Below, piece after piece: positions 2,401 to 64,000 of a DNA stretch of 64,000 bases. Origin of the DNA: Opisthocomus hoazin (lineage: Eukaryota; Chordata; Aves; Opisthocomiformes; Opisthocomidae); contig NC_134440.1 of the NCBI RefSeq assembly GCF_030867145.1, positions 3,596,001-3,660,000 on the forward strand, in the 5' to 3' direction. The notes under the pieces were generated by a model, which saw only the letters and a list, made by a program, of their open reading frames with translations, searched no databases and was not told where the DNA came from. Every line of letters starts with the position of its first letter. Position 1 is the stretch's first letter. The position numbers were made by a program, and so were the translations under genes.

Positions 2401-2406
2401 AAACCT

Positions 2407-4051: not shown

Positions 4052-11073
<7,022 letters not shown>

Positions 11074-14206: not shown

Positions 14207-14213
14207 CTCAGCG
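14201..14213. promoter_or_regulatory. MARE/AP-1-like site
   Basis: TGCTGACTCAGCG matches the 13-bp T-MARE (TGCTGACTCAGCA) at 12 positions and contains a perfect AP-1 core, TGACTCA. It is the last, altered unit of the tandem array, about 2.25 kb before the 16,468 start codon. Function not shown. Confidence 0.4.
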
Positions 14214-16467
14214 GGCGGGAGAGCGGCTCCAACACCTCCGGCTGCTCCCTGCCGCCGGCCCGATCCTGCCTCCGCCCCGGTGCTGCGCGGGTTCGGGGAC
14301 CGAGGGCACGGCGGGGCTGGCTCTGTCCCCCCGGGGTGTCCCCATTCTGCAGCATCAGGTCCGGGAGGGGAGGGTGAAGGTCCCCGAGCCACCCCGGGGT
14401 GAGACCCCGGCCACGTCCCAGGTGACACCAGTGGGCACCGATGGTCCCCTCTCCTCCCACTGTCCCCCCACCTTGCCCCTGACCCCCCAGCGCAGCCTCA
14501 AGCCACCCTCAGATGGTGCCTTTGCCAGAGCTGGCCGTGTCCCCTCTGCCAGCGCCAGGACGGGTGTCTGTCCCCCCCCCGGGAGCCCACCCGTCCCTGC
14601 GTCCCAAAAAGAGCCGCGCTGAATCCCGCTTTATCCCTGGCTCCGGGTGGGAGCCGAGGGGCTTGGCCGGGGGAAGGAGCGGGCAGAGGGACGGGCAGGT
14701 GGGCAGCCGGGGCGGCTGCAGGGGGGCGATTCCTCCTTCCCCCCCCAGCACCCACCGCTGGCTCCTGCCCCGGGGGAGCTTCCTGGGGGGGGATCTGGGA
14801 AGCCAGGGGGGATGCGGGCGGTGGGTCGGGAGCGCGGGCGGCCGCCGGCCCCCGGGCCAGCCGTGATTCACTCGGCCGGACCGCGGCCGCTGGGGCTGAA
14901 TTTTCTCAGGCTGGGTGGCTCCCGGCGCCTGACATTTTTGGGAAATTTCAACAAAAACAGTTCAGAAGCTTCCAAAAAACAGGACGATGGGAACAGGCAT
15001 TGTTTTGTCTCCCTCCTGCTCTCTTTTTTTTCTTTTCTTTTCTGATCCGTGCAGTCGCTTCGGCCGGGTGCCCGACACCTCGGAGCCCCACGCAGCGTCA
15101 CCCCCCTGTCCCCGCGTGGCCCCGGGGCACAGCCCCCCAGGGCTATGGGGCAGGGGCTGACTCGTGGTGTCACCCCCCTTGGGAGGGGCACCCTGGGCCC
15201 CCCAGGTGTCCCCTGCCACCCCCAGCTCTGTCCCCCCACATTCCATCCCCTGCAGGGAGCGATGTCCCCGTCCTCGCGGCCGAGGGGCTGCAGAGCTGGG
15301 ACAGGGATTAAGGGGACACGGAAAGCCACCGAATGATGTCCCCACGGGCTAGAAACGGCCCCCCCCCAGCTCTGAGCCCCCGAAGTCACCCACAAACCCC
15401 AGCCACGGCAGCAGTGCCATGGCCCGGGGGCTCCCAGCCCCATCCCAACCTCAAGATCGAGACCACCGGGTCCCTCCGTGTCCCCTCTGCTGGAGGGGGA
15501 CATGACCCAGGCACCCCCCTGGCATGGGGAGCTCTCAGGGCACCCCAATTTGTCCCATCCTGCACCCCAAGTCTCCAGCAGACCGAAAGGACACCCAGCC
15601 AGGGACCGGCCACACTCGGGGACGGTGGCCTTGCCACAGCCGGGACCTGCTGTCCCAGGGCTGAGCCCCCCGCCCCAGGGTCTGCAGAGCTCGTGGTGGC
15701 ACCGAGTCTCGGGCGGGGGGACGGGAGGGGGTCCCAGATGGGGCCACGGTGCCCGGGCAGGCGGCTTCGCCGTGGTGCCAGTGGCACAACCGGACACGTC
15801 ACTGCTGCCGGGCTGCCTGGGACCCCCGGGGACGGACATGGCCCGGAGCTGGTGGGGGCTTGGGGCACTTTTCCCACCTTTTTGGAGTTTTTTTTGGGGG
15901 GGAAAACCAGAGGTGTTGAGCTCGACAGCAAACGTCGGGGTTTAGGGGAAGATATTCCCGTTTTCACCTCCCCCCCCCCCCAAAAAAAAGGCGATAACGG
16001 GATGTTGGTCTCCTGCAGACCCTTCTGATGGAGGGGCGGGGGGGGGGGGGGACCCGGGCGCGGCCCCCGGGGCACGGGAGGGTCCGTAGCGGCCGGGCGT
16101 GAGTCACCCGTGGGAAGGCGGCCCGGGACGGCCCGTTTGCACCCACGGGGGGCTCGGGGGGGAGCGGGACACCGGGGGGGGGGGCGGGGAGAGCATCCCG
16201 CAGCAGCACCGGCCGCCGGCGGGCAGGCACCGCGCCTCGGGGGGTCAGCACCGGGGCCGGTACCGGAGCTGGGCGGCGGGGCCCGGGGGACCGGTGGCTT
16301 TCTGCCCCCCCGGGGGCGGGCCCGGGCCGGGCGGGGCGGGGCCAGGGCGGCATTTAGGGCTTTGGTAACCGGGGGGTGGGGGGGGATTGCTCAGACTTGC
16401 TCGGGACTTCCCCGGACGTGCCGGTGCGTTCCGCCGCCCCGGGCACCGACGGGCACCGGAGCCGGCC

Positions 16468-16534
16468 ATGCCGCCGCTGCTCCCCCCCCTGCTCCTGCTC
16501 TGCCTTCGCCTCCTCCGGGCCGAGCCCCTCGCCT
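16468..16534 (+). CDS. CRLF1: Signal-peptide exon, probably cytokine receptor-like factor 1 exon 1 (partial gene)
   Basis: ATG opens 22 codons of a clear signal peptide (MPPLLPPLLLLCLRLLRAEP) and then meets a strong donor, T|GTGAGT, leaving phase 1. Phase-1 signal exons are usual in type I cytokine receptors. The exon lies in a CpG island head to head with TMEM59L, exactly where human CRLF1 starts. CRLF1 is secreted with CLCF1 and signals through CNTFR. No exon 2 (expected to begin with a stretch like HTAVISPQDP) was found before the N gap, so the identity rests on position and signal sequence only. Another secreted-protein gene cannot be excluded. Confidence 0.45.
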
Positions 16535-18728
16535 GTGAGTACCGGGAACACCGGGAGGACCGGGCGGCTCCAGCAAGGTGGGCGCGGGGGGTCCCGTCGG
16601 GGCCGGGCGCGGCGCGGAGCACCCCCCCCCCGCCCCCCCGGGGATCCCCGGTTCGGTGCGGGCCGGGCGGTGCCGGTCCATGGGGTGGGGGTCGTGTGGC
16701 CGTGTGTGTGCCCCCCCCCCCGTTTCCCCCGGTTCCCCGGGATGCGGAGCGGGGGCAGCGGCGGGCGCACCTCGGGGCTGCGCGTTGCGGGGTAAGCGGG
16801 ACCCCCCCCACTGAGGGGACCCCCCCATCTCCCCTCGGCAGGCGGCCGGGACCCCCCCCTCCCTCCCTGGCCCTGCAGCCCAGCAGCCCAGCCGGGACCC
16901 CCCCCCTTCTCCCCGCAGAGAACAATAGAGGAGCCTTTTCTGTTCCCCCCATCCCCAAGCGCAGCAGGGACCCCCCCTCCTCCCTCGGGAGCAGCGAGGG
17001 ACCCCTCTCCCCATGGAGAAGGAGGATCCCCCTCCCCGAGAAGGGTCGGTTCCCCCCTGTCCCCCCCCCCCCCCCGCCGTGCAGCCCCCCCCTCCCGGAG
17101 AACAATGCGGCTCCGTTCCCCACCCAGGACAATGGAAACCCCCGTCCGGAGAACAATAGCGAGCCCCTTCCCCACCCGACCCCCTCCCACCCCTGGAGCT
17201 GTGACCCCCCCTTTCCCCCCCTCAGAGCCTCTGAGCCCCCCCCTGCTCTTGCTGAGAACAACGGGGACCCCCCCGTTCCCCCCAGAGAGCCGTGCCCCCC
17301 CCCCCCCCCCGGTCCCAGAGAACAATGAATCCCCTTTTCCCCACCCAGAACCACAGGGAGCTCCCTCCCCCCACGGAGAACAACGAATCCCCCCCAAAAG
17401 ACCCCCCCGGGGGGGCTCCGTGCTGGTGCCCGTTTGGGGGTCCCACCGGGTGGTGGCAGGGACAGGAGGTGCCACCTGTGGGCTGAGCTGCGGGCGGCCT
17501 CAGCCCTGGGGGGATCGGGGTCCCCCTTCACATTGGGGGGGGGAGGACACAGACACAGGAGGGGTCCCCCTACTCCGTGCAGAGCCCCAAACCACATTTG
17601 CCCCCCATCCCACGCGTCGCCTCGTCGCTCCCGCTCCGGCCCGGGCCAAGGGGAGGCGAGATCCCGTTCCCGGGCCGCGGGAAGCTTGGCTTCCTCCCGG
17701 TGATGGGAATTTCTCAGGGCGATGGATGTTCGCTTCCGACGCGCTAACGGGTCCCGCCAAGAAAAGCCACTGCTCGGCAGCTCCCGTGTCCCCGGCGACG
17801 CTGTGGGGTCCCGGCCACCCAACTCCCGTACCCCCCCCCAAAACCCATACGCGTCGGTAACGGGGGGAGTCTCAAGGAGCCCGAATTGGGGCAGGAATTG
17901 CAGAGGGGTGAGGAAAAATGTTCCAGAAATCCCTTTCGGAGGCGTTAGCCAGAGGCTCTGAGCGGAGGTGGGTTTCGGCGTGGGGCAGTGCCCACCCCAG
18001 TGCCCCTCCCGGGGGTCACAGGGGTTAATCCCACCAGGGACGATGTGGGGCCGTGGCCGGACCCCCGTGGGGCTGACCCCACGCCTCTCGGCTCACCCCG
18101 CTAAGGGAATGCCCGGTGCCACCCGGTGCCACTGGCAGCCGGTTCCCCATCCCAGGGACCCCCATTCCCCCCCCCACGGGGGTCCGGTGCAGGCGCCTGG
18201 GGCGAGCGCTCGCCCCGCGGCCCCTCGACGTGCGGCGCTGGGGAAAGGCGAAGCCAAATCTCCTTTTAGAGAGCGAAAGTTTCCCCTCGGTGCGGCTCGG
18301 TCGCGCTCGCTGGAATGCCTGGGCTTTTTATAAATCCCTCCTCGAGCTGAGGGATGGGCACGAGAAACGCCGGTCGGGAGAAGAGAAAGGGAAAAAGATC
18401 ATGGAAAGGGGGGATAAAGAGTTTTCGGGTGCCGTGTCCGCCTGCAAACCTTGCTGCTTGAGCTTTAGAAGAGCTCTAAATATATATTTATTTTTTTTAA
18501 ATTTATTTTTCTTGCAGAATTCAGGGCTGCCCAAATTTCCTTTTGTTCTCCAGGGCAATTATTTATATTATTTTTTCCTTAAGCCCCTGCACATCTATAA
18601 TAATCTTTTTTAACTGCGTGATCCTCCGACACTTAATCGGAGGGTTTTTTTCCTTTTCTTTCCCAACCCCTTAAAACACTGATGTAAAATAAAATGAAAC
18701 CCGGCCCTTCGGAAGAAAAGCATAAACA
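16535..18728. other. Presumed CRLF1 intron 1, cut by the gap
   Basis: GC-rich with long C runs to about 17.4 kb, then more mixed, ending in AT-rich sequence (18.48-18.73 kb) at the gap. A polypyrimidine tract and TTGCAG near 18,510-18,517 look like an acceptor, but what follows does not match any CRLF1 exon I know. No exon called. Confidence 0.5.
16918..17395 (+). repeat. Degenerate minisatellite with GAGAACAA motif
   Basis: GAGAACAAT or GAGAACAAC recurs at 16918, 17098, 17149, 17254, 17318 and 17376 inside C-rich spacers of uneven length. It gives a spurious Glu-Asn-Asn pattern in one open frame that continues from the 16,468 start codon past the splice donor. Confidence 0.75.
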
Positions 18729-18928
18729 NNNNNNNNNNNNNNNNNNNNNNNNNNNNNNNNNNNNNNNNNNNNNNNNNNNNNNNNNNNNNNNNNNNNNNNN
18801 NNNNNNNNNNNNNNNNNNNNNNNNNNNNNNNNNNNNNNNNNNNNNNNNNNNNNNNNNNNNNNNNNNNNNNNNNNNNNNNNNNNNNNNNNNNNNNNNNNNN
18901 NNNNNNNNNNNNNNNNNNNNNNNNNNNN
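18729..18928. other. Assembly gap, 200 N
   Basis: Exactly 200 unknown bases, a typical placeholder length for a scaffolding join of unknown size. The flanks belong to different syntenic places (CRLF1 side on the left, SSBP4 side on the right). Confidence 0.97.
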
Positions 18929-21564
18929 TCCACCACGGTGCCCACCCCACCCTCGCCCACCCCGGCATGGCCCCTGCCCCAGGGGGGTCCGTCTCCGTCC
19001 CAGCGTCACACCATGAGCTGCCCCTCGGATGGCCGGGCAGCCTGTGCCTGGGGGGGGGCACGGGGCCTGTCCCCCCCCAGAGACAGAGCCAAGGCAGGGG
19101 GGGGGGGTGCAAGCCCTGTCCACCCCTGGGGACCCCCCACAGTGCACAGACCCCCCCAGCCCGGAGTGGGGCCAGCACTGCCCCCCCAGCTCCAGCCCCC
19201 TAGGGGGGATGGTGCAGCCCCCCCCCCCCCCCTCCATGGCAGGGACCAAATTGGGACCCCCCCAGCGCCCCCCCCATCAGTGATGCAAAGCAGAGTTGCC
19301 ATGGCAACAGGTTGGGGAGGTTTCGGCTCCTCCTGCAGCCTCAAGGTCAGGAGGGAGAAAAGGCGGGGGGGGGGCACATGGGGGGCGCGGGCTGGGGGCT
19401 CCCCACACCACTGCCCCCCCCCGGGGGGGACCCCAGACCCCACTGCGGCACCGGCTGCTGCCACTGCTCGTCCTCACTGCCTCGCACACGTCAGACCCCC
19501 CCCCAGTGATGCGGGGTCCCTGTCCCCCACGATGCTGGGGGGGGTCCCCAATGCCCCCTGGGGGGGGGCCGGGCCAGCAGCACCCATGGGGAGGGTGAGG
19601 GGCACCCACTCCACGCCGGGGAGCCCTGATTCATCCCTGCGGGTGCTGGTTTGGCCGCGGTGGGCACCGGGATGGGGACGCAGCCGTGCTGGGGGGCGGC
19701 AAGGGGGGGCCCCCCGGGGGTCCCCCCCCAGCGCCCCGGCTCTGCCTGCCAGGCGGCACTGCCATGGCAACGCTGCCTGACCCGCGCCGCGTCCCCTCCG
19801 TCACCGCACCCGCAGCCTCATTAATTCCAGCATGGAAATCAGCTCCGCGCCGGGGGCTGGGGGCGGCGAGGCAGGGGGGGGTCGGGGGGGGGGGGCCCTG
19901 CTGCAGCCCCGGCAGCCCCCCGCGGGTGCCAGCGCCGGGCACACGCGTGTCCACGCGTGCCCACGGGACCACGCTGTGCCCGCAGCGGTGACGGGCGGGA
20001 TGGAGGGCAGCGTGGTCACCCCCCCCCCCTCCACCAAAGGGCTGGGTGCTGCGGCGGGGGGCTGAGCACCCGGGGGGGGGGCAGGGGGAGCGGCACCCGC
20101 CCCGCTCCAGCGGGATGGGGAGGGAACGGGGGGCAACGTGTGCCCCGCGGCCTCCTGCATCCCACCGCAGCCTGCGCGCCCGGGCACCCCCCGGCACAGG
20201 GGGACGCGCAGCACCCCCCAGCCCTGGGTACCACGGGTACCACAGCATCCTGCATCCCTGGGTAACGTGGGTACCACAGCATCCCACATCCCTGGGTACC
20301 GCGGGCACCGCAGCATCCCGCATCCCAGGGTACCACGGGCACCACAGCATCCCGCATCCCAGGGTACCACGGGCACCATGGCATCCTGTATCCCATGGTA
20401 CCACGGGTACCGCAGCATCCCCCAGCCCAGGGCACCGCGGGTGCCGCAGGATCCCGCGTCCCCCAGCACCCCTCGGCCCGGAGCATCCCCCCTCGCACAG
20501 CTCCACGCACCCCCGCAGCGTCCCACACGGCCCGGGCCTCGTCTGTCCCGCAGGATCCCGCATCCCCCGGCCTTCTGCATCCCGCAGGATCCTTGCAGCA
20601 TCCCGCAGCACCCCGTATCCCATGGCCTTCTGCATCCCCCGGCATCCCGAATCCCCCGGCATCCCCCCGCCTTCTGCATCCCGTGGCCTCCCGCAGCATC
20701 CCGCATCCCGCAGCATCCCGGACCCCACAGCATCCCACACCCCCCAGCATCCCCCCGCCTTCTGCATCCCACAGCATCCCACCCCCCCCCAGCATCCCCC
20801 CACGTTCTGCATCCCGCAGGATCCCACCCCCCCCAGCATCCCCCCACGTTCTGCATCCCGCAGGATCCCGCATCCCCCGGCTTTCCACATCCCCCAGCAT
20901 CCCGGACCCCGCAGCATCCCACAGCGCCGTGGACCCCGCAGCAGCCCCCACCCCGGGCCCACGCCCTGTCCCCCATCCCAAAGCACGGAGCCCCCCCCCT
21001 CCCAGCCCCCCCAGCGGGTCTCCCCCCCCCCGCGGGCCCCGGCTCCCCTCCTGCCTCCCCCCGGCTGTTGACTCTGGGCCAATCATTAACTCGGCGCGGG
21101 CTGGCGGTGATAACGAGCGGAGCTGCCGGTGGCAAGGGGGGGTCCCTCCGGTGTCGGGGGGGAGGGGGTGCCTCGAGCCCCACGACCGTGGCCCCCCAGG
21201 TCACCGAGACGGGGGGGGTGGCACCCCCCAACCCAGCTGGGTCCCCCCGCGTGGGAAGCGAGAGCCCGGCGCTTTGCCCACGCTGCGGGATGGGGATGGA
21301 GCCGGGGATCCCTGTCCCCGGGGGGGGCGGGGGGGGGCACGCCGGGGTCCCTGGAGGCGGGGGGGGGCTGAGCTAGGCCCCCAGGGATTACCCCCCCCCA
21401 TGCCACCCTGCAAAATAGGTCAGGCTGCGCCGGCGAGGCCGGGGCTGGCAGAGCCGGCGTTAACCCCCGGGACCCCGAGGGGCTCGGAATGGGGGTCTCA
21501 CGGCGGGGGGGGGCAGCGGGGGGGGCAGCGGGGCTCAGAGCCCCCCCCAGCCCGCGGTACTCAC
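18929..21564. other. Presumed SSBP4 intron 4, right side of the gap
   Basis: No SSBP exon 5 or later exon could be found on the minus strand; a search by eye for codons of the Pro/Gly-rich region (for example GFFQ) found nothing. Contains G/C homopolymers and a compound minisatellite at 20.2-20.9 kb. Confidence 0.5.
20222..20935. repeat. Compound minisatellite (34-bp units, then short GCATCCC units)
   Basis: From 20222 to about 20460 there are about seven 34-bp units of the type CCCAGGGTACCACGGGCACC followed by a GCATCC segment. From about 20540 to 20935 the array becomes 9-11 bp GCATCCCGCA-like units with a longer repeat containing CCTTCTGCATCCCGCAGGAT. It lies in the presumed SSBP4 intron and produces long false frames. 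Confidence 0.9.
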
Positions 21565-23948
21565 GTAGTCGTGGAAGGCTTTGGCCTCGCTGGAGTGCTC
21601 ACAGGTTTCCCGGCGGTCGGGAGCGGCGCAGTAGAGGTCCCAGAAGACGCTGGAGTTTGGGGGGGGGACACACAGGGGGTCAGGACCCCCCCGAGACGCC
21701 TCCCCATCCCCCCCCAACACCACCCTCACCCACAGCGCCCCACGGCGCAGCCCCCACCGCCATGGGGCACAGCCCCCACCACCAGCTGAGCCCGGCCACG
21801 CTCGTGTCACCGATGGCCGGCGGGGTGGGGGGGGGCCGGTGAAGGGACCCCCCCCCCCGGCCCCCCCCCCCCCCGGCGTGGCGGGGGCCTCCCGGCGCTG
21901 CCGCCTGTTTTCCCTGGAAACGGTCGCTACGGCCGGAGCCCAAATTCCTGGGACTTTACATCAGGGCTGCAGCATCCCGGGGCGGGATGGGGGGGTCCAG
22001 CCGCCTGCCCCCCGCCCCGGCGGGGCACGGGGACCTGGAGGGGCCGGTGGTGCGTGACCCCCCCTCCCCCCCAGCGCTGCTTCTGGGACCCCCTCCCAGA
22101 TTTGCGGGTGCGGGGGCTGGCAGCGGGAGGGTTAAGGGCCTGGAAAATGCTTTGCCCCCCCCCCCCCTCGCTGCCCCCCGCCCCTCATAAATCACCAATT
22201 AATCGTTTATTGGAAATGGGTAAACGCGGCGGCAGCGCGGCGCCCGGCACGGCCGCATCCTGCACCCCGCTGAGCCCCCCCCCCAGACCCCGGGGCGAGA
22301 CCCCCCAACACCCCCTCCTTTCCACGCCGGGGAGAGACCCCCAGCACCCCCCCCCTCCACACCGGGGTGAGATCCCCCAGCATCCCCCCCTCCACGCCAG
22401 GGTGAGACCCCCAGAATCCCCCGCCCCCCCACTGGGGTGCTCTGCTGGGGCCCCCCCCGGTGCGGGGGGGCCAGCCCCGGGTTGGGGCCCCCCCCTCACC
22501 CCTTGCCCGGTGCCAAATTGGATCCATCTGGAGGGAGGGGGGCGGGGGGGGCCGGGGTGCAGCCAGGGTACGACGCAGGGGGGCTCCCCCCCCCCCAAAA
22601 TCGCTGATGGGGAAAGCAGAGCGGCTGTCGGGTACGAGGTGACGTGCAGCGGGGGGGGAGCAGCCCCCAGCCCCAATCCCAGCCCCACCGCTGCAGAGGG
22701 GGGGTCCAGCCCCCCCCAACACCCCCCCCCCCCCCCACTCACCACCACCAGGAGTGCAGGAAGCCGGGGGGCTCGCCCAGCGTGATGTTCTTCTCCCATC
22801 GGATCTGCGGAGTGGGGGGGGGTGTCAAGGCGGGGGGGGGTCAGGCAGCCCCTCACCAGGCCCGACGCCCCGCAGTGGGCTCGGGGGAGCTGGGGGGGGG
22901 GGCTGCAGTGCCCCCAGCCCGCGGGATGGGGGGGGTCAGGGGGTGCTGCCCCCCCCCCTCACCTCCGACAGGAAGGTCTGCGCCGATTTCTGGGCCCCCA
23001 CGTGCAGCAGGTACTCGTAGACGTACAGCGCCAGCCTGGGGGGGGGACACGGGGATGGGGGGGGGACACGGGGATGGGGGGGTCAGGGCAGAGCCCCCCC
23101 ACCCCCAGGGGTGCCCCCCAGGCCACGGTCACCCCCCCCAGCCGAGAGACCCCGCGTGACGACCCCGTTAACCCAGGGCAGGATTCCCGGGGGGGGGGAG
23201 GTTGATGTCACCTCCCTGAGAGGTGACACCGCGCCCCCCGCCCCCGGTGACACCGGGCAGTCGCTCCCATCACCGGGGGGGGGGGACGCCCCCGCTCCCC
23301 ACCGTCGGGGTGAGCCAGGGACGGGTGACACGACCCGGGGGGGGGACGAGGGGGGTCACCGCGGGGGTCCCCTGCCAAGGGACCCCTCCCCGGGGTATCC
23401 CGGCGCCGCGTCCCCGGGGCTCCATCCCAACCCCGCCCCGGCACGGCGGGACGGGACCCCGGGGGGGCGGCCCGGGCTCGGGGGGGTGGGGGGGACCCCG
23501 TCGTGGGGTGCTGTGCCCCGGGGACAGCGGCGGCCCCGACCACCGGGACACAGCGGGGACGGCCCGGGATGCCGGGGGACGGCAGGGACCGGGGGTGGGG
23601 GGGGGGTGTGTCACCGCGGCTCCCTGGGGCTGACGGGGACCGGGGGGGGGCGGGGGGGGGGGGGGGGGTCACCGCGGCTGCCGGTGCCCAGCTGAGCCCC
23701 GACGGCTCCCGCTGCCCCGCGGCGGCTGCCGGTGCCTCCCGGCGGGGCGGGGCCGCGGGGGTCCGCCCGCCTCCCGCTCCCCCCCCCCCCCCTTCCCGCT
23801 TCGCTCCCGTCCCCGCTCCCCCGGCTGCCGCCCCGGCAAAACTTCCGCGCCCCCCGGGCCGCTGCCGCCCCGGCCGCCGCCGCTGCACTCACTTCTCGCG
23901 GGCCTGGCCGTCCGAGGGCACGCCGGAGCCCTTGCCCTTGGCGTACAT
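21565..23948 (-). CDS. SSBP4: Single-stranded DNA-binding protein 4, first four coding exons
   Basis: Coding exons (minus): 23948-23893, 23035-22963, 22804-22743, 21649-21565. All have GT-AG borders and matching phases, giving 92 residues. They start [19 protein letters not shown], followed by a LisH-type segment ([20 protein letters not shown]), then [20 protein letters not shown] and [20 protein letters not shown]. This is the highly conserved LUFS/LisH N-terminus of SSBP2/3/4, which binds LDB1 in nuclear LIM-homeodomain complexes. The SSBP4 choice rests on neighbours (LRRC25, GDF15, PGPEP1, as in human); the N-terminus alone would also fit SSBP2 or SSBP3. The remaining two thirds, the Pro/Gly/Met-rich activation region, is absent before the N gap. 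Confidence 0.92.
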
Positions 23949-30277: not shown

Positions 30278-32091
30278 TCAGGCACAGTGGCACCTGGTGA
30301 CCAACATGTCCTCGAAGAGCGTGGAGACCAGCCTGCCCTCGCCGTCGTAGTGCATCAGCACCATGGGGTCGTAGCCGGCGGGGACGCAGCAGGGCGGCGG
30401 GGTGGCTTTGGAGAGGGAGTGCATGCGGGCTTTGATCTGGGCGTGCATGCTGGCCGGCTTGTAGTTGTGGGGACAGGAACCTTCGCAGAACCTCATGTAG
30501 TAGCTGTTGGGGGCGATGATCCAGTCCGACCAGCCGATGTCCTGGAAGGAGACCTTGAGCGACTTGAGGCAACACTTCCCATCGCTCTTCCTGCACTCCT
30601 CCTCCAGCCCCCGGGCTCTCCTGGCCCCCCGGCCCGCGGTCTCACGGGTTTCCACCTCCAGCACCAGGCTCTCGCCCACCGAGGTGGCCAAGGAGGCTGA
30701 GACGTCGGCCGTGAAGGCCAGCTCCAGACACAGCGTGTCCTCAGGACCGGCAGCCCAGGGCTGGATGGCCGCCGTGAGATCCAGGCTCAGGGCATCGCGG
30801 TCCAGCTCTTGGCTATGCAGGAGCCGGGGGGTCCCGTGACCCCCCCCGAGCATGTAGATGCTGACGCGGGGGGGCACCGGGGTGCCAAGCGGGGATGTGC
30901 CAGCGGATGCCAGCGACTGCTTGAAGAGCTTCAGCTCTGCCTGCAGCACCTGGAGCTGCCGGTGGAACGCCGCGGTGCGGGCAAGGAGGAGGTGGTAGCG
31001 GTAGGGACCACGGGGGTCCTGGTCGCCCTGGGGGTCCTGGTCGCCCTGGGGGTCCTGGTCTCCTCGGGGGCCGGCCGGCCGGCGCAGCACTGTGGGGACA
31101 GCGAGGACAGCTGATGTAAGAGCTGGCAATCCACCTCGCCAGCTCGTGACCAGCTCCTGTCAGGCGGCCAAACCGCCACCTCCGGGGAATCACCCAGATC
31201 CCGAGGGATGCCGAGACCAATCCGGCACCATCCTCATCCCCACCTCACCCGGGACCCACCATCCCCGGGGAGCCCACGCCGGAGGGTCTTGCCGAGGGGC
31301 TGCACGTTGTGCCGGAGCAGGTACCCCGGGACCCATGGGGTGACCCCCACCCCGCGCCCTGGCCGGCCCCCCCAGCCCAAGCAGCACGAGCCGAATATTT
31401 CCCTAAATCACCCCAGATTTGGATAAAACCCCAAACCGGGGCTCGAGCTGGGGCTCGAGGGACGACACCTCTCCTCCTCCCCTCCGCTCGCCCCAAGCCG
31501 GCCGGAACCCCGCTCCCGGCCCCCGCAGCTGCCCCCGCGCAGCTGATCAAAGCTTTCATCCCAAATTTCCCCAGCTTTGTGTTTTTAAGCAAAAAAGCTC
31601 AAAACAGGAAGCCGCCGGGATAAGGATGACCGGCGCGGTTCATGCCCGCTCATGTCCCGGCACACGCTGAGGCAGCCGGGCTGGCACGCCCGAGCGGGGA
31701 CGCGGTGGGGGACACACGCGTGTGCCCGCCCGCGGGGACGAGGGTCGTGGGACGGCACGCGGAGCCACGGCCACTTACACGTGGGGGTCAGGCGATGCAG
31801 GCGCCGCGTCCCGGGCACGGGTCCCTCCTCCTCCCGGCTCCGGTTCCTCGCCAGCTCGGCCACTTTCTGCTGGTAGAGCCGCTGCGCTCTGCGGATGCTC
31901 TCCTGGTCCAGCCGGTGCCGGATGACGGGGGGAGCGGGCATCCCCAGCCGCTCCAGGATCCCCTTTTTGATGGCTTCCAGCTGGAACCCGTCCTCGTCCC
32001 ACGCGCGGGGCCTCGGCTCCACGCCGGCGAGCAGCAGCAGGAGCTGGAGGCAGGTGAGGGCGGCCCCGACGTCCCGCAGCACCCTCGGCAT
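30278..32091 (-). CDS. GDF15: Growth/differentiation factor 15, two exons, complete
   Basis: Exons (minus) 32091-31779 and 31089-30278, GT-AG, phase 1, 374 residues (human 308). Signal peptide 1-24 (MPRVLRDVGAALTCLQLLLL). The prodomain has a glycosylation sequon, N83-R-S, and an 18-bp coding repeat (GDQDPQ x3, about residues 114-131). A furin-type site RRAR at about 261-264 releases a mature domain of about 110 residues with nine cysteines: EEEC, KCC, FC, GSC, PPPCC, and RCHC at the end. FQDIGWSDWIIAPNSYYMRF and SMHAQIKARMHSL are typical of the TGF-beta superfamily. GDF15 is a secreted stress cytokine acting through GFRAL/RET in mammals. Neighbours LRRC25 and PGPEP1 fit the human order. The longer size comes from the prodomain. 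A TATA box lies 133 bp upstream of the ATG. Confidence 0.96.
31015..31075 (-). repeat. GDF15: 18-bp tandem repeat inside GDF15 exon 2
   Basis: Three copies of GACCAGGACCCCCAGGGC-type units near the start of exon 2, encoding GDQDPQ repeats in the prodomain. In frame, so copy-number change would alter the protein by six residues per unit. Confidence 0.9.
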
Positions 32092-49558: not shown

Positions 49559-52500
49559 TCAGTGTTCATGCTGACAATTGATTTTGTCTTCAGAATGCTC
49601 CAAAACATCCAGCATTTCTTCTATTATAGCCTGCAGTGCCCGACCCAGCTGTTCTGCGGTATACGGTTTTCCCAGCGGAGGCACATGAACAAAAGCCGAC
49701 CTCCCGCGGCTCTGGTATAAGGAAGTGTAGTAAGTGAAGTCACAGAGGTATCTGAAACACAAGAACAGAACTTATTTAGCAACCAGTGACAAATACAGCG
49801 CGCAGACTGTAGGACGGGACGAACTGCCTTCTGCTCGGTCAGCATTGCAGCAACCTCCCGCGATAACGAGCGGAACACAAGGCAGGTGCGAGCCTGCGCG
49901 ACTGCTTTAATCAAACCTGCAACAACGAAACGTAAAGATCTCTCTGGTTTCCCCCGATGACTGGGTGACCACTGGAAAATAGCTGGTATTGTCAGCCCCG
50001 GGAGCGGTGAAAAGCGTGTGAATTGTACGGGTCTCATGAGTTGAGCACGAAGGGAACTCGTGCTGCAGGACGAGATTATTTTCCCCAGCGATCATCCCAT
50101 ACCTGCCGGCATCCTTCGATATAGTGACCGTGACGTCCAGCCCCAGCGCTGAGACTCTCTTGCAAACCGTGTCCATGTCAATAACGGAATCGATGCACTC
50201 CGGGCCACCTTCTACGCAGCACTGAGAGCCCGGGCAGAAACGGCAGTTGTCCAAGCCTTTATAGCCTACGTTATGGCCACACTTCTCCAGAGTCACGGTC
50301 GTAGCCATACCCGAAACACCAACATGAACCACCAACTACAAGAGAAAAGAAATGAGTTAGATCAACCAAAAGACGGAAAATCAACAGCCCACTATTCCCA
50401 GTTAAAGACTGATGGAGTTGCTACAGGAGCTCTTGCCTGAATATCACAGTAACAAGTCATTTTCTCAATGAACTCGTGGGTCCAGTACAGAACAAGTCTT
50501 GTTTCACCGCCTCCTGGCCTGCATTGTAGTTTACTCGGGGTAAAAACGAACACTGGCACCTCCACAGCCGAGCCCACCGCCGGAGCGGCCCAGGTGGCAC
50601 AGACTAACTGTGAGCTGTCTAGACAGCCCTTTGCGGCGGCCTCTTCACACCGACTGCTCCCGTTAATTGGAGCACGCTATTCTGAGCAATAAAATTCTAC
50701 AAATTCACACGTTCTCAGGACAAAAGAGGAAAAGATCTAGCAAGGGACTACCAGTCTGAACATATATTAAAAATGGGACTTCACATTATGCCCGTTGCTG
50801 TAAGCACGACAGGTATCAACCATTTGCTGTGCCTTTTCTCCTCCTCCCTTTACTCACTCACTTGTGGACTGTGTTTTTTCCATAAGGCAGGAATGAGTCT
50901 TTGCACTGTCTGGTACTCAACTGGGACTTCATAGACGTGCAGGTCCACGTCATCTCGCAGTCCTAGCTTCTCCAACTCCTAAGAACATCAGGAAATAAAC
51001 AAACCCAAGATGGTCAGACACAAGCTCAGCAGAGGATATACTTCTGCAGAGTTTATTAGTGGAGCGAGTCTGCTGTGAGGGACTAACATCAGCTTACACC
51101 ATGGCTGTATAACCTTGTAAACAGCACCGTGGAAAAAAAAAAAAAAAAAAGACCAGAATAGGGAACAACAAAGGCATCTCTCCACCTGTGTTAACAGTCT
51201 TCAGCCACAGGACCGTTTGCTTTGCTCTGATGTGTGTATAACAAAGAAATCAACGTTTAACTGACAATAGTTATCAACAACACCCACGCTCAAAAGAAAG
51301 GCTGGCTGCCATTAGTTCTGTAGCCATATTCACTTCTTGAAAGAACTAGATATTGTAGAGAAAGTAGAACTGGGAGGATTATATTTATCGTTTAATTTGT
51401 CCTCTCTCAGGATCGCTGGTCTGGAGAGCAAATTCACATCTGTCTGCAGATAGACAAGCAAGAGGTAGGTGACAGTACCAGCAGGCTGCGGTTCTGGGTC
51501 TGCGAGTCTCCACAAATATCAGCAAACACTCCTCCGATCAGAAACTGGAGCACCATCGGCGCACCCTCCTCAACATATTTGTTTTACTTTTGTTTTGGCG
51601 GGATCTGGAATACAGCACTCCCAAAATGTAAAATGGGTTCCCACCGCTACCTTTACCTATACCTAATATACTGTACTTCATTTTGCAACATGAGCTGTTA
51701 CCATTGTAGCGATTCAACAAATGCAGTAAATTGTTTCTCCTTCTATAACCTTAACTAAAGCCATGCCTGGAAAACATCCCAAACATCCAGGCAATAAACG
51801 TAGCCAATTTCCTTTAAACCTTTTAAAACACAATGTGTCAGTTAAACACCTTGCAAGGACTTTGTTAAAACCAGAGGGAAGAGGAAAGATCTCTTTTTTT
51901 CTTCCCCAGTATACCTGACTGGAAAGCACACTGTTTCATCCCAACACTGCGAGTTCCCTCCCAGTACAGCCCTGGACACTTCTCCCTTGCTCTTCTTTGG
52001 TCTCCATCTCCACATGCTCCAGTCTCACCAGTAAGGCTTCAGTTCGAGGCTCATTTGGTACTTCAGAATTTACCAGTCTAGCCCAGAACAGGACTTCATC
52101 AGAACTGAAACCTTCCAGAGCCATCAAACCCAAACTTTCAAGAAATCAAGGAAAAGATACCTCTGAAAAAAAACTTCCTAGACAAAATCATCAGCTGAGC
52201 TCAAACCCTGGAGCCTTGTGAAAGTCTGTGAGGCACTTTTCCAGCGGCTGAAGCGACTTCAGCTATCATGTTCAATGAGTTCCACCAGCATCTAGCCCGG
52301 ATCAAGCTCCCCTCTGATAAACACAACATTTTTTGGCACTCTGAAAAACTTTACAGCTGCTTTTCAAGACCGGTAAGTGACCGCACATGCCATAAGGCCA
52401 ACAGCCCTTGTCACAGTCCTCCCATCCCTCCGTCTCTGCTGGAAAGAAGCTGCGAGCGCATCCTTCTCTGCAGGCAGAAGGAGCCGTGCGCTCTTGCATC

Positions 52501-55500
52501 CCTGTCCCTGTATTTCAGCTAGAAGAATCAACTCCAGCTTGTCACAAGTTAACACACAGCCGAAGCTTGTCGCCTGGTGCTGCTCCTCTCCTCCGAGATA
52601 CATGTCAGTTGACAAACGCAAGCTTACTCGTGCCAAAAGCCTGAAATGATTACTTGTTCCAACATCAAAGGGGCCGCGTGCATAGCAAGAAAATAACCTG
52701 CGACTCTCGCGTCCATGTACCAGCGCAGCCGTTCGCATGGATCTGAGGTAGAAACAGCATCGTAAGAAGCCATCAAACTATCAAAAGACATTTTAAAATA
52801 TTTTTGAATTATTAAGTTATCTCTATTTCAGGTTTGGAGTCAGTGATCGGAGCCAAGAGCTGCTCTTTCAGGTAATTGTTACGCTTTATTTTCCTGTGCA
52901 CAGAGATTATACTTGCAAACTGCAGGCTAAGAAGCGCAGATTAGCTGTTCTCAATGAAGCTCACTCAATTTCAGATCTTGTATTTCCCTAGGTTTAAAAT
53001 TCTTTCAAATTAAAGACAGCTGAAACGAGAAGAGAAGTTGAGGTTCTTGGACTCCCCCATTACACTCGTCCCTCCTCTATATAAACGTGAGCAGTACCTC
53101 AGCACCCTTTTTCTGTAGTTATCAGTGCGAGTCGTTTCTTTACTGAGGAAAAAAAAAAAACCCTTTCACGCTCGTACGGACAGACCACAGACAGTAGAAC
53201 AGGATTTAAGGTAACCAAAACACGCAGCAAAGGCAAGAGTAAGACTTTCACGGACCAGCAGATATGAGCAACAACAATGATAAATCACTTGCTCTGGCTC
53301 TGAGGGCAAGTCTGATATTAAAGCCTCGCTGTATTGATCAGCGTCTGGCGCACACAGACGTTCATTACCAGAGATGGATGCTAAGTGATCTTTCATCACA
53401 TCTTCTTTACATAAATCTGCCTTCAAAACGTTCGCTGGTTTATGTGGTGCACTAATAAAGTAAGTAGTTTACGAATGAAGAGTATCCAAACACAAGTCAG
53501 TCTCTTTAGGAAGCTCTCCAGAGCGTTAATTGGTGGCAATTCATCGTTGCTTCTCTAAAGAGCATGAAACAGCTCCTACAGATGAATCTGATCACAGAAA
53601 GTTTTACCAGCTGCACAGAACGAGCGTGCGCAGCGAGCAAGAAACCTCGGGCCGTGTGAGCCGCCCCATGGCAGTGACAGCTACCTTCTCCAAACGCAGG
53701 CACGTTAAACCTTAGCTTTACAAATTCACAACTTTCTTTTAACCAAACACCGCGTTCGCCTGCTTCCATTCAGTGATAAAGATGTACGCTGGCCCCCAGA
53801 CAACTTATTACCCACAGCCTTGTATACCTGACAAACACAGAAAAACGAACGTGTCTGACCGATTCCCTGACCCCTCAACAATGGTCGCCTTTGTGAGCCT
53901 TTAATATCCTTATCAGGTCTGTCTAGACACCCTGACAGCAATTGTCCTTCATAATGTCAAAGCGCACTCTGACCTCGCTGCTCCTCCTCCTCCGGCTCAG
54001 CCAGAAGCACTGCGGGGGGATGAAGGCAGGAGCCCATCAGCTTCACCGTCCACGGGGCACACCTGGGTCTGCACCTAACTCAGGGCAGGGAGAGCCAGAC
54101 AACGCGCTGGACAAAAAGCCCGTTTCAGTGACGACTTCTTGAAAGGGAGGTCTCTCCAAGCAGAAAGTGCAGCTGAAAAAATTCCTCACATGAAATATTA
54201 AAACATGGAAGAGCAAATCCACATGAACACAGGATATTTTTACTCTAAGCCTCGAGAAAGAAAGCAGAAAGAAGTTTACTCTTCACTCTGAATTTACAGG
54301 AAATCTCTCCTCCATGCATAAAAATCTCCAAACATTTAATCTCCGCAGTGTTAGAGTGCTACTGCCACTATTTAAGATACTAGCTTGTAAGTCATTTAGC
54401 TTTCAAAAACACATAACTATACTAGAAATTCACTGCAGTCAGAGGGAAAAGACACACCGTATCCGTGTTCTATATAAAAAGCCAAATAAAACCAAAGAGA
54501 GGACTGGAAAGCAAAGCGGAGAATTTTATCCTCGGGATGCAGGATAATAAAAGATGTAATAAACCAGAACTAGCTTAGCCCTAAAGCTAGGAAGGATTTA
54601 CCAAGATTGTTTAATTGATTTTTCTTCTATTAAAATGCAGATCACACCGTCTGGGATTCAGAAACTCAGACACGCCTTTGTGTCCACTCAGCTCCATGAA
54701 GTCCCCTGTCTGAAACTCGCACAATGCCCAACTTGCATGTGCTCAAAGACATGCTGTTCCTTTTTGTCTGGGCCTCTCGGGGCTGAGACGGGGGACGGAA
54801 AGGCAAATCCTCCCCACTGCCTGAAAGTTTATGTTTTCAGCTGGAAGCTAGCGCGAGGTATTGAACAGGACTCGGAGGAAGACGGGTTCCGACGCAGCAG
54901 ACCGCGCACCGCCAACTGTAGTTTTAGACTCTCCAAACACCCCCAAGCCCATAAAACGGATTTAGATGAAGCAATCGCGTGCATTTTATCAGCCACACAG
55001 CTGAGCGGCCATCAGTGCCTCGCGCTGGAGGAACGACACGCCGTTCCTCTTTACAGGAATTCTGCGCTAGGTTTGTTTTTGTAAGCAACATCAGAACGCC
55101 CACCGCTCTTCCTGTCCCAGAAGCACAAAGTGGTTTTGTCCATCTCCTCTAGAATAAAAGCAGCTTGTTTACAATGACTGACATTACACGAGTAAGAACA
55201 AACCAAATCAATTCGCCTCGCTGCTGAATTTCGGTAACGTGCAATTTTATTCCCCCCCCTCCCCAGCTCGTATTTTTCCCCAAACTTAAACCGAGCAAAC
55301 CCTAACTCAAATATATTCATTTCCAAAAGGTTCCTGGAGGCAAAGGTTTCGACTTCTCATAGCAGCCAACACATTAGACATCTGGACATTAGTTGACTGT
55401 AATTGATTAGAGTTTGTGATTTAATTTAAAAGCATTCTGAAGAAGATATTAATCTCAGAGCTCTGAAGGGAAGAGAGATGTGTTGGGGAGAAAAATAGAT

Positions 55501-58500
55501 TTAATTCCCTGGGCAACTGTACTAAAAGGTACCCTTGAATTCCCAGTAGCTTTGTCACAAACCACATCCAGAAGTGACAAATAAGGCAGAATAGGATAAT
55601 GTGGCAGCACTGTCCCTCGCTAATGTTTTTACAGCAAGCGACCTTAATTCCTTAGTTTAGCTGGGCACCTCGCAAGAGTTCGATTTCTCCTTCTCGCCTC
55701 ATTTATGAGCATAGCAGCGTGTTACACAGCCTGCACGTTCACGCAGCTACAAGTGGCATAAACGTCATCTGCCCGAGCGCACACAATCTGCTGGAGCAAT
55801 GATCCTCCACGAGCACTCCTGCCTCCAGCCAGGTCCAGCTCCCTCAGCCAAGCATCACTGGCCGCTGCTTCCGGAGCAGCGAACACTGCCCGACCCCCCC
55901 GTGCCTCCTGCGTCGCCCACCGCAGCCCACGGGGACAGGAGGCAGCGGCGGCTGCTTTGCGGTCAGAGTCCTGATGTTCAGACCCACGTCGGACCGCTCC
56001 GCAGCACGCCTGACGCCACAAGACTGCCAGGTGGAAGTCTCATAACGGATGAGACTTGGCTTACAGGTTAACCAACTTCCCCAGATTCAAGCTAGAGCTG
56101 AGAGCAAAACACAAAAATTCTTCTTGGTTTGTTTATTTGTTTTGAATTCTCTGTGGCAGAGGAAGATTCCAGGCTCCCTGCCCCATTTAACGTCTTTCAA
56201 ACCTACGAATTCCTTACTTGCCTTTGCCACACTAACTCAATCTCATTAAATTCTACTAGCTAAGGGATTGTTTTCCGAGGAGTGAATAAAACATTATCCA
56301 GCTGACCATCTGGATATCTGGAGCGAGCTGGTCTCAGTTAATAAACCGGGAAGGCAAGTTATAAAAGAGATGCAAACTAAAATTTGTACAGATACGCTAT
56401 CGGCACGGCGCTCTGTTTTAACCTGTTAAGAACGAAGTTACCGTGTTACCTGAACTGCAATCCAACTGGCGTTAACAGCGTGCTCTCCAAACGGGCCAAA
56501 CCCTGGAAGAGAAGTGAAAATCCACAGTGATGAAGTCATCCTTACAGGTTTGACTAAGCCTCAAGCTGCAAAGCGGCCTGCGCTTTCCTGCTTCACGTAC
56601 CCTGAAAGAAAACCCACTTCTTCTAACATCCAGCCCTTATTTACTTTACATCCAAGTACTAAATAAGAGACCTTCACAGAAATGTTTGAACTGCACACCT
56701 TTTACTGTGAAGGAAAACAACAGCTTGCCTCAAAAGAAACTCTTTTTTTTTCCCCACAGACACCGGGGAAGCATATTTCTTCCCTCCTGACCAGGTTAGA
56801 AAAACTTGTTATTAATAAGTTGACTGATGTCACAGAATGAGAATCTTTATTGGATTTTCTATTCCTGACTGTTTTAGCCCACAGCAGATGCTTCCACAAA
56901 CGCGAACGGGGCCGTCTCAAATACTTCTTCTCTGCTCAGGTCTTCACCAAGGGCGCTGTTAGCATTAGTTATGCTTTACGAGGAAATAAACAAAACGCTG
57001 CTGACAACCCACCCACACCAAGCAGCAAAGGTTATGATAGCATTATCAAAAATACTTACTCACCGCATCTAAATTTCCTAATGAATAACCGAGAGTTAAC
57101 TAGTAACCCATAACATCTTTTCCTGAGCAAGCACGCAAAGGTTAGGCAATTCATCTGGGTGCAACGTCAATGTGCTTTAATTTAAAATGTCAGCGTTCCC
57201 CTCTGAGCCTAATGCAATTAGGAGACATAAATTTTGTCTAACTCGTGAAAGGACTTGAGAGGGACTACAAATATTCTGTGACACTTTAATGGAAACACTC
57301 TATTTGCTATCAACAGTAAGTCCGAGGTTACACTGCACACGACGACGGAGGGAATCTGCGCAGCGTGGGCTCGTCCACACCGATGGATCTCGTACAATCC
57401 AACCAACGTCGATAACCCCCCCAAAAGAAATCTCCTGCAGGCTTCCACAAAATCAAAACGTAGGCGCGCTTTCCTGTGAGCAAACCTCCAGTGTCACCAC
57501 GACCAGCTACAACCGCGGCGCAGGCGAACAAGTCCAATAATCGAGTCCCTTTCCAGACGCTCCTGCAATTCGGGGATGTCCTACACAGCTCTCTGGAAAC
57601 AACCAACCGCGACCCGCCAGGCTTCGTTCCTGAAGAAACCATAACAGTCTTTTTACAAAAGAACTAAAATACATCTATTTCTTTTTAACAATTCAGCCAG
57701 TGGAAGGCTGAAATCCTTCAGGTGCCCACGCACATAACGTAACCCTCTCCCTCTGCAGCCAAACCCGAACAGGCACGAGCACAACCGCGGGCTCTTGCTC
57801 CTCTGACTCATCTCCCGCACAGATCCCTCGTGTTAGCGCTTTCGCAGAAGACAAGCAACTTTGTTGGCAGCATCAAACTCCAGCGAGCATGCCCCGGAGT
57901 TCCTCCGCATCCACAACAGGAATGAGCCCTCCAAGGCTCATTAGCAGCAAACCAGCTGCAGAGACCTTTACGGGATTATCTCCTTAAACAGTTCTAAGAA
58001 AGAAACTGCGCACAAATCATACTTCTCCTCAGCCAGCACATGCTCAGAACGGGAACACAACGCTGTTGCTGATTTTTAAAAGGAATTTAGGGTGACAACA
58101 ACGACAGATTATTAAAAACGGGCAGACCTGACAAGATCACCATTGCATTTCAGAAACAAACCTCCCTGAAAACAAGAGGGGGAAGATAGACCGGAGAAGC
58201 ACCGCAAGCAGCAGAGTATTCCCCAAGGCAAGTTTTCTGTTTAGTCACTGCCGAGCGCGGCCGCTCGGCACTAGAGATGGGTTCGGGAAAGCCAGAATTT
58301 GCCACCTGCTTCTTCGCCGGCCGCAACCGTTCCCTGCAAAGACACTCGCCTCCAATTAAAACCGCTCCAGCGCACCGGCGACAACGAACCCCTCGCCCCC
58401 GCTATTCAGACAGCCGCGACTTCAGCTGCCGGGGGGAGCCCAGGACACTTTCGCCGAGTTCTCTGTTGTCACAGAGCCGCCTTCGCCACAAATCAAGCCC

Positions 58501-59958: not shown

Positions 59959-62900
59959 ATGGTGAGTGGCGGTGGGGAGGGCCCGGGGTCCCGGGGAGGG
60001 CCTGGAACCCCGGGGACGGCCCGGAGCCCTGGGGAAGGCCCGGAGCCCTGGGGAAGGCCCGGCTCGCCTCTCCTTGGGGCAGTGGGGCCGGCGTCCCGGT
60101 CCGTGTCGCGATCGGTGTCGGTATCGCGGTCGGTGTCCCGGTGCCCGGCGGTGCCTGAGGCCTCTCTGTTCTCTTTCCTCTGGCAGCTGCCCCTGTCCCT
60201 GCTGAAGACGGCGCAGAACCACCCCATGGTGAGTACCGGCAGCACGGCCCAGCCCCGGCCTCGCCGTGCGGGTGGTACCAGGGGCGGGTCCCGGTACCGG
60301 GGCTGGGCCGGCGCCCCGTGACTCCCGTCTCTTGCAGCTGGTGGAGCTGAAGAACGGGGAGACATACAACGGGCACCTGGTCAGCTGCGACAACTGGATG
60401 AACATCAACCTGCGGGAGGTGATCTGCACGTCCCGGGTAAGGCCTGGTCCCCGGGCAGCCGGTGGGGGTCACCCCTCCCCCCCCCGCCCCGGGGAGCCCT
60501 CGAGGGTCCCCGACCCTGCAGCCGGGCCGGCTCTGCTCCGGCTCGGAGCCCATCGCTCCTGTGTTCGCCTGAAAGGCAGTTGCAATCCAGTTATCTATAA
60601 CATCCGTGAGGAAGGAGCGTGCTCGGGGCGGCTTTCCGCGCCGAGACGCCGGGCGAGCGTTTCCCCCCGCTGCGAGAGGCTCCTCGGCCCCGAGGGCTGT
60701 TGGGATGCGGTGCTGAGCTGGGTGTCCCGAGAACGGAGCCTTCATCTGTCGCATGCTGCCCGAGGAGCGAGGTCTGCTCCAGGCGCTGCGCTGACGTCTG
60801 TTAACTTCCTCGTCTCTCACCCTCTCCACATCAAAACGGAGGAGCCTGTTGTTTACCCGCGCCGGGGATCTGCGCCATCTGGTGCTTTTGCCCTTGGCCA
60901 AAGTCGCCCCAGAAGATTGTGATCTGTGTTTCGGGCTTTGAGCTTGCTCAGAAGCGTCTGGTCTCGTCCCTCCCGGCTGGGCGCGGTGGGAAGCGGCAGC
61001 CGGGTGGGTGTCGGCTGTTGCTGCGCCTTTCTCTGCCTCCCAACATCAGAGCTGCGCGGGAGAGGCTGGCAGAGATCCTCCCTCTGCCAGAAATCTCTCC
61101 GCAAAGCCCCGGTGCCTGTTGTCTCCTCACCAGGGAAGTTCTGAGCGATGCCGCTGGGGCGCGGAGGCACGTTTGCACGCCGGCGTGACAGAGTTGATGC
61201 CTTGAGCGAGGTTTGGGAGGGACCTCGGGGCGGAGCAGCAGGGCTGAGAGGTTTGTGGGCAAACCTTGGCTTCTGGGGGTGCAGACGGGAAGGAACCGCT
61301 GTCAAATCTCGCAGGAGGGGGCCCTACGAGGAGGTAACGGAGAGCAAAGCCTTATCCATGCGCACGGCACGGGGGATACCGGCCTTCTCCGTGGGAAGCC
61401 GCTTCCCGCGGCTGCGGAGGAACGGGAGCTCGGGTTTTATTCCCCGTGAGCGATCCGGAGGGGTCCTGTCACGCAGCAAAGCAGCCGGGCTCGTCAGCTC
61501 TGCCTCTGGCCCGCCTTAAAAGACCTCAACGCCTCCCAAGCCCGGGTGAAAGCGGAGCCGCTGTACTGGTGGCACTGGTGGGGACTGGCCGCTAGATGGC
61601 ACGGGGAGGCGGCGGACCGGTGGCCCCGGCCCCCGGGGGCCGGTTGTTTACTCCGGGGAGGCCGGAACGAGGAAGCGAGGGAGCCTGGCTCCGTCCCTCC
61701 CCGCACCCCGAGCCAAGCAGCAGGCGGATCCAAGGCAGGGTGGGGTTTGCTGGGTGGCTTTTGGAAGAGGGCCGCAGCGCTCTGTCTCGTCTTGCGCGCG
61801 AAGGACTTGCCTGTACAGGCAGAGTTGCCCCAAATAACTCCTGGGCTGGGGTGTGGGGGGGGAAGAATCCGACTTATTTTATCCCAGGAGAGGAGGAACG
61901 AGGCGTTCTTGTTTAACCCCCTCTCCTGGGACGTTACAGGCGCCTCATCCGCACGCTGCCTGCTTGAGAATCGCTGGGCTCGAGCGATCGCATCCGCAGC
62001 CAAACCCTGATGGAGCGGCTGCCGAGCCGGGGCTGCGGTGGCGAAGCGGGGCGAGGCGGGTCCCCGTCCCTCCTCCCGGTTACATCATGGGCAGCCCAGT
62101 TGTTGTTCAGCTTCGACGCTGGGTTCCTTTTCCCACAGCCGCCCTCGGCTCGCGGGAGGCAAAGCCCTGGTAGGCTGCGTCCTAGAAAAGGCCTGAAACT
62201 GTGTTAAACAACTAACAAACTGTATGTAGAGATGGCTGCTCCGTCACTGGGCACCTGAAGATTGTATTTTTATATATATATATATGATCTGTCAGGTCCT
62301 TACTTCTCACAGCCGCCGTTTCAACGCGCTGGTGGCAGACTCCCAGCCGGCTCTGGACCTGCCTCCCTGCTCCGTCCACACCCCGGAGCAGTGGGGGAGC
62401 GAGGCGGCTCCCAGCTGAGGCTGCTGGAGAAGAAACCCGGCCGTGCCTTCGCCGCAGCTGCGTTTTCCTTGCCAGAGTCGGTCGGTCGCAGCCGTTGCGT
62501 GTAACTCGCCACCCTTGCCTCTCTCGTCCCGCTTTCGATTCGCTCCTTAACATGAGAAGGGAAGGTGCTTGTGTCCTCAGCCTCTTCCTTCATTTTCTGC
62601 AGGGGTTTGAGGCCGTTGTGGAACACAGTGAAACTGCTCAGCTCATGGCTGAGAGCCCTCCCCTCCCCATGTTTTGGAGGGAAAACCCAGCCCTTTTTTG
62701 TGGCTAATTACAGATAATGCTTTCAGAAAAGATTGGCGGAGCTGTGGCACCCCCCAGAAGTGATGGAAATACTCAAATGGCCCAAAAAGTAACGCAAAAG
62801 CACCAGGTTTTGTTTGTAGCCTAACGCCTTGCTCCCCAACAGGATGGAGACAAGTTCTGGAGGATGCCAGAGTGCTACATTCGTGGCAGCACGATTAAAT

Positions 62901-63026
62901 ACCTGCGTATCCCCGATGAAATCATTGACATGGTGAAAGAAGAGGTGGTGTCCAAGGGCAGAGGCCGTGGCGGGATGCAACAGCAGAAGCAGCAGAAGGG
63001 CCGTGGCGTTGGAGGTGCTGGACGAG
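59959..63026 (+). CDS. LSM4: U6 snRNA-associated Sm-like protein LSm4, first four exons
   Basis: Exons 59959-59961 (start codon only), 60187-60228, 60338-60436, 62843-63026, all GT-AG. They give 109 residues plus one base; the final RG-rich exon (human protein 139 residues) lies beyond the window. Sm motif 1 is in [20 protein letters not shown] (16-35) with MNINLREV; Sm motif 2 is in [16 protein letters not shown] (59-74). The tail starts [20 protein letters not shown], an RG-rich region as in human LSM4. LSm4 is part of the LSm2-8 ring on U6 snRNA in the nucleus and the LSm1-7 ring in cytoplasmic mRNA decay bodies. The initiator ATG is directly followed by the GTGAGT donor, so exon 1 supplies only Met. 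Confidence 0.98.
60437..62842 (+). other. LSM4 intron 3
   Basis: 2.4 kb without recognised exon, snoRNA boxes or other gene. A (TA)n run lies at about 62,270-62,285. Confidence 0.6.
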
Positions 63027-64000
63027 GTAAGAGTCCCGTTCATTTTTCAGCTCGGAGAGGGGGTGAGCGGGATCCCTGCCTTTAAATTTCACCTCTCGCC
63101 CAAGGAACGGCTCTTGCTGCTCGGCTTTAAACCCAGGGCTGCTTGTCTGGGGGAAGCTGGAGCCGCTCCTGGGCGAGATCTCAGCGAGCGAGCGCGTTGC
63201 CTCGCTCGCAAGGCAGCCTCTGCCAAAGAGCAGAGAAGATTCGTGCCAGGGATGTGCCTCCCTCCGTACTGGGGTTGGGCAGGAGCTTGGGAGAGTCTGG
63301 ACTTGACCGTTTCGGCCCCTCCTGGCTGGTTCGGGAGCGTGGCCCTACAAAACGGGGGTCTGTTAGCTTAGCAAGTCTGGGAGGGAAACAAATGGCTATT
63401 CTGTTTGAAAATAGACTGGGCTCTGAGCGTGGCAGCGAGAGGAAAACATCATCTTTTCTCCCATTATAATGGGGCTTTTGATCTCCTGGCTTGTTGGTTT
63501 ATTTATTTAAAGAAAAAACTACATAAAAATCTGAGGGTCTGTGTTCCTCCTGCTCGACCTGAATAATTCATGGTTCTGATAAAAGGGGAGGTTGCCACTT
63601 TAGAAGAAATAGGTCACCAAAACAACTGTGCGTTGCCTGCCCCACTTCACGGGGCGAGGTGATCTCGGAGCACTTCAGCTGCGGGACGTGTTTGCTCTTT
63701 TCACCCCCAACTGTCCTGCTGGAAGGCCCAGAGCCATTTCTCCCCTTTCCTGCTCACCCCTCCTGCCACGTACCTGCGATTCGCTTTCTGGTCGCCTCGC
63801 TTGGCCCCGGGGTTGCTCTCGGTTCAGGCTCTGCCTGCAGCAGGAGCTCAAAATCCCGAGTGCGCTCAACGAAACCGGGTCTGGCCTGGGAAATGCGACG
63901 TTTTAAAAGCAGCCCTGGGGACTGGGACAGCGCCAGGCGCAGCCTCTGCAGAGCACCCTGAAGGAGCTCCCGCGTTTTGCCTATGCAAGGAATCCCAGTA
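63027..64000 (+). other. LSM4 intron 4 to the window edge
   Basis: Opens with the GTAAGA donor. I searched for the last LSM4 exon (GVFGGRGRGG-type) and did not see it, so it should be to the right. Confidence 0.7.

Follow-up and report, generated by a model that had tools for sequence, protein, structure and literature searches.

The window that we analysed, that is, the whole 64-kb stretch of DNA, is broken at one point by a placeholder of 200 N, and on each side of it a gene is cut short. Taken at face value, the genes expected between these two have been lost; this apparent gene loss is most likely an assembly artefact. The placeholder very probably stands for sequence that was left unplaced, and the block from CRLF1 to SSBP4 is very probably absent by assembly and not by biology. 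The case for missing sequence rests on two things, the N placeholder and the gene order of the chicken, and the features on which the argument draws are the following, with the evidence for each in brackets.

4459..8401, minus strand: TMEM59L exons, the left anchor (Pfam BSMAP in three frames, best E 1.8e-26; tblastn)
16468..16534, plus strand: candidate CRLF1 coding exon 1, signal peptide (translation and donor; name from position)
16535..18728, plus strand: left flank, presumed 5' part of CRLF1 intron 1 (exon 2 search negative, Pfam 0 families)
18729..18928, no strand: 200-N placeholder gap between two contigs (sole N run in the window)
18929..21564, minus strand: right flank, presumed 5' part of SSBP4 intron 4 (exon 5 search negative, Pfam 0 families)
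21565..21649, minus strand: SSBP4 exon 4 (tblastn, splice sites, PDB match of the joined product)
22743..22804, minus strand: SSBP4 exon 3 (masked tblastn, splice sites, PDB match of the joined product)
22963..23035, minus strand: SSBP4 exon 2 (tblastn, splice sites, PDB match of the joined product)
23893..23948, minus strand: SSBP4 coding exon 1 (tblastn, splice sites, PDB match of the joined product)
between SSBP4 and GDF15, plus strand: a leucine-rich repeat (LRR) gene in LRRC25's place (Pfam)
30284..30601, minus strand: GDF15 mature domain (PDB GDF15, E 6.5e-28; Pfam TGF_beta)
49562..56503, minus strand: PGPEP1 exons, the right anchor (tblastn, four pieces, 84-94% identity)
60187..63028, plus strand: LSM4 exons (tblastn; PDB LSm4, E 1.6e-18 for one exon)

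The single N run of the 64-kb window, at 18,729-18,928, is exactly 200 bases long, a conventional round length as expected of a placeholder assembly gap. A skink assembly scaffolded with YaHS is described as having 54 gaps of 200 N apiece (PMC12134992), and for this reason the 200 N seen here probably carry no size information. Our case resembles these fixed-size scaffolding gaps in its one 200-N run and in the consistent order of its contigs, and differs from them in that the example described there is a skink and that a single gap is visible in this window (PMC12134992). Comparison of the left contig with the right one revealed no overlap at the gap edges; apart from a single 50-bp match, what the two have in common is a dispersed repeat of about 400 bp, which accounts for 8 rows of the comparison. 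Searched against the window, the two 1-kb contig edges gave, besides themselves, one 18-bp and one 36-bp match, and the matches of the left contig's last kilobase elsewhere in the window are short and at chance level. A tRNA scan and an Rfam scan at gathering thresholds returned no matches. As a separate observation, the window contains six copies, 89-96% alike, of a dispersed repeat that is at most about 400 bp long and resembles the 3' end of CR1 elements of birds.

1210-1507, 5667-6074, 34398-34653, 35191-35620, 41484-41910 and 43058-43456: copies of the dispersed repeat

The better documented of the two interrupted genes lies to the right of the gap. Its four exons, the edges of which were counted by hand on the sequence, have AG/GT splice sites at every internal edge and, spliced together, encode a 92-aa sequence that aligns to SSBP2 chains of the PDB with 198 bits (E 1.3e-58); exons 1-4 therefore belong, as judged from their sequence, with certainty to the SSBP family, within which the member SSBP4 is assigned from the neighbouring genes. 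Beyond exon 4 the gene could not be followed towards the gap. In the 2.6 kb between the gap and exon 4, an SSBP exon-5 peptide scored at best 38, a value reached by 18 of 60 mononucleotide shuffles, and an SSBP C-terminal peptide scored 25, reached by 14 of 60, whereas the positive controls in the same peptide search, SSBP exon 4 (156) and exon 2 (121), were each equalled by none of their 60 shuffles. Unmasked tblastn produced many spurious matches, mostly to the proline-rich SSBP C-terminus, and was repeated with masking and with shuffled controls. Pfam at E 0.01 reported no family for the SSBP N-terminus, and Pfam-negative gap flanks therefore say little about SSBP exons.

On the left, the sequence-only reading had recognized a signal exon in the place of CRLF1 exon 1 with no further exon behind it, and the exon as such stands: it is a 67-nt ATG exon, MPPLLPPLLLLCLRLLRAEPLA, with a GTGAGT donor in phase 1, and encodes a hydrophobic signal sequence. 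Its name is another matter. Against human CRLF1 the exon matches at noise level (26 bits, E 0.11), other chance matches of CRLF1 reaching up to 30 bits, and it is named CRLF1 because it adjoins TMEM59L, which has the opposite orientation; the CRLF1 identity of 16468-16534 is thus one that we infer from position and not from similarity. Two CRLF1 exon-2 peptides, searched for in the 2.2 kb before the gap, gave best scores that were reached by 10 of 60 and 6 of 60 shuffles. For an intron, 2.2 or 2.6 kb without an exon is nothing unusual; from the two flanks, in which no further exon was found, it can be concluded that the gap interrupts both introns, but no more than that. Some 4 kb from the candidate exon and head to head with it, a leucine-rich, signal-like stretch on the minus strand at 12308-12388, known only from a noise-level CRLF1 tblastn match, may be exon 1 of TMEM59L. 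The earlier claim of a 200-N gap with two interrupted genes is borne out by the sole N run, by the presence of SSBP4 exons 1-4 only and by the negative search for exon 5.

The genes said to be absent were sought by masked tblastn, in which the best seven matches per query were considered. Over the whole window, the best matches were at E 0.40 for UBA52, E 2.1 for FKBP8 and E 0.11 for ISYNA1, and the best match of ELL was at E 1.9e-4 (35.8 bits, 26% identity, 20,623-21,027, plus strand). The last of these was rejected: although it lies on the expected strand, it is one of 112 such ELL matches in the window, and we read it as spurious, a low-complexity ELL linker paired with minisatellite sequence. 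UBA52, FKBP8, ISYNA1 and ELL are accordingly without a credible tblastn match in the window, as the sequence-only reading had proposed, and the same masked search found LSM4, PGPEP1, TMEM59L and GDF15, all with strong matches. Queries with JUND and CRTC1 found no gene in the window, which is expected if both genes lie outside it. KXD1 and REX1BD were covered by the Pfam scans only and had no tblastn query of their own. Over the six frames of both gap flanks, these scans detected 0 families in 12 translations, a result that short exons could escape. Elsewhere, Pfam was run on the window apart from the plus strand of 1-16,300 and of 21,598-24,000 and two of the three minus-strand frames of 21,596-24,000, and its coverage of 33,901-64,000 consisted of four single exons; two of the PGPEP1 exons gave no pyroglutamyl-peptidase family, one of them yielding a sub-threshold DUF3060 match. 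The absence of the tested genes holds for this place in the window, and the piece that carries them may sit on an unplaced contig.

The genes that are present run in the order TMEM59L (minus), CRLF1 candidate (plus), gap, SSBP4 (minus), LRR gene (plus), GDF15 (minus), PGPEP1 (minus) and LSM4 (plus), which we take to be the order of human 19p13.11, inverted. The claim that the other genes of the window keep the inverted human order can be upheld on this footing, with TMEM59L, the LRR gene, GDF15, PGPEP1 and LSM4 all fitting the human order. Both SSBP4 and the CRLF1 candidate point into the gap, as they should if the stretch between them is missing. The PGPEP1 exons at 49,562-56,503 lie within a stretch of about 14 kb (44001-58000) that has 40-50% GC, the window elsewhere being mostly above 55%.

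The best outside evidence for such a block comes from the chicken. On chromosome 28 of GRCg6a, an association study places SNPs inside TMEM59L at 3,971,928, KXD1 at 3,990,564, ELL at 3,999,772 and 4,003,865, and PGPEP1 at 4,059,366, from which it follows that TMEM59L and PGPEP1 enclose KXD1 and ELL in the chicken; the chromosome 28 list of the same study has CRLF1, REX1BD (as C19orf60), UBA52, KXD1, FKBP8, ELL, ISYNA1 and SSBP4 (PMC7379350). By these SNPs, TMEM59L and PGPEP1 are 87.4 kb apart in the chicken (PMC7379350), as against 37.0-54.5 kb retained in the window, a range that depends on the measuring point within each gene and for which the outer ends used (TMEM59L at 12,388 and PGPEP1 at 59,189) are weak candidates, the PGPEP1 first exon being a weak tblastn match at 59,139-59,189 (E 0.03). 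If the spacing matches that of the chicken, 32.9-50.5 kb would be missing here. The earlier suggestion that tens of kilobases are missing at the placeholder gains support from this order, and the spacing, although that of another species, would predict about 33-50 kb, as far as the SNP positions given for chicken can show (PMC7379350).

That the CRLF1-to-SSBP4 block was truly moved to another chromosome or lost, with both border genes broken while the chicken keeps the ancestral order, is very unlikely. One form of this, a real translocation or inversion that moved everything from CRLF1 exon 2 to SSBP4 exon 5 and left the gap at its breakpoint, would account for the failure to find the tested genes in the window and for the cutting of both flanking genes; it would, however, split two conserved genes, its break would coincide with a placeholder gap, and the chicken, by the SNP positions listed, has KXD1 and ELL inside the interval that these anchors bound (PMC7379350), all of which makes us regard it as highly improbable. 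Little probability likewise attaches to a wrong scaffold join, in which the two contigs would not be neighbours at all: joins of 200 N can be false, and in the skink assembly three scaffolds were split at joins judged false (PMC12134992). Against this, gene order and orientation on both sides of the gap continue one synteny block, which contigs joined at random would not do. If about 40 kb had really been deleted, in the individual or the species, the gene content would be the same, but a plain deletion gives a continuous contig and not a 200-N gap, and it would take out UBA52, FKBP8 and ELL, which are broadly needed genes, so that its probability verges on the negligible. Rearrangement had already been called less likely on the ground that it would have to break two genes, each within an intron, at the same point; we retain the conclusion but consider the argument weak, since a true deletion whose two breakpoints fell one per intron would leave the same picture.

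Under the favoured reading, unplaced sequence at the placeholder, there remains the question of what caused the break, for which a GC-rich sequence had been put forward. The two edges differ: the last 1 kb left of the gap has 57% GC and 2 long G/C runs, the first 1 kb to its right 75% GC and 18 G/C runs. Of the window's 200 G/C runs of at least 7, 105 fall within the 8 kb of 16,001-24,000, the densest in the window, and minisatellites occupy about 20,200-20,950 in the right flank. Coverage by G4 motifs, on the other hand, is 0.147 and 0.227 in the gap flanks against a window maximum of 0.518 at 10,001-12,000, and that stretch was assembled without a gap. Of the GC-rich cause the idea that dropout operated here survives as plausible; it is weakened by the left edge, of which GC dropout is not an obvious explanation because of its 57% GC and its 2 runs only, and by the denser G4 stretch at 10,001-12,000 that was assembled through. 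The alternative, a short contig left unanchored, may fit as well as GC dropout. Other tandem repeats seen in the window are a CATCC array of about 138 copies (26543-27239), a 60-bp minisatellite (28506-29023) and a GGAT array (7153-7354).

The literature on bird assemblies, in the sections that bear on gaps, points in more than one direction. In a bird-of-paradise assembly, the sequence added at gaps is described as GC-rich, with a mean of 58% vs 40% (PMC7757076, section 3.7), and the gaps of PacBio assemblies are blamed there mainly on LTR retrotransposons, then on satellites, and not on GC (PMC7757076); for earlier bird assemblies, false gene loss has been linked to GC-rich sequence in the relevant part of another study (PMC9516821). 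Our case shares with the falsely missing genes discussed in those sections (PMC9516821; PMC7757076) a GC-rich, gene-dense, syntenic cluster that is absent at a gap. It differs from them, so far as the same sections describe their material, in that they concern other species and, in PMC9516821, older Sanger or Illumina assemblies, whereas in our case the left edge has no extreme GC content, and in that the PacBio gaps of PMC7757076 are attributed mainly to LTR elements.

In the sequence of events that we propose, a Hi-C scaffolder or a curator would have put a fixed 200 N between two contigs that are correctly ordered and oriented neighbours, with a stretch between them that neither reaches into. 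The chromosome itself would have some 33-50 kb at this point, holding the rest of CRLF1, REX1BD, UBA52, KXD1, FKBP8, ELL, ISYNA1 and the remaining 3' portion of SSBP4. Either this sequence would be unassembled, perhaps through read dropout in GC-rich sequence with long G/C runs and minisatellites, or it would have ended up in a short contig that lacked an anchor. What we infer rather than observe is how the scaffolding was done, why the assembly broke here, how much sequence is missing in this species, that the signal exon belongs to CRLF1 and what became of the missing sequence.

As biology, the missing block at the gap is ordinary, and its value is that of a warning. Annotated automatically, this stretch could be credited with some six lost genes and two truncated ones, an error that surveys of gene loss could then repeat.
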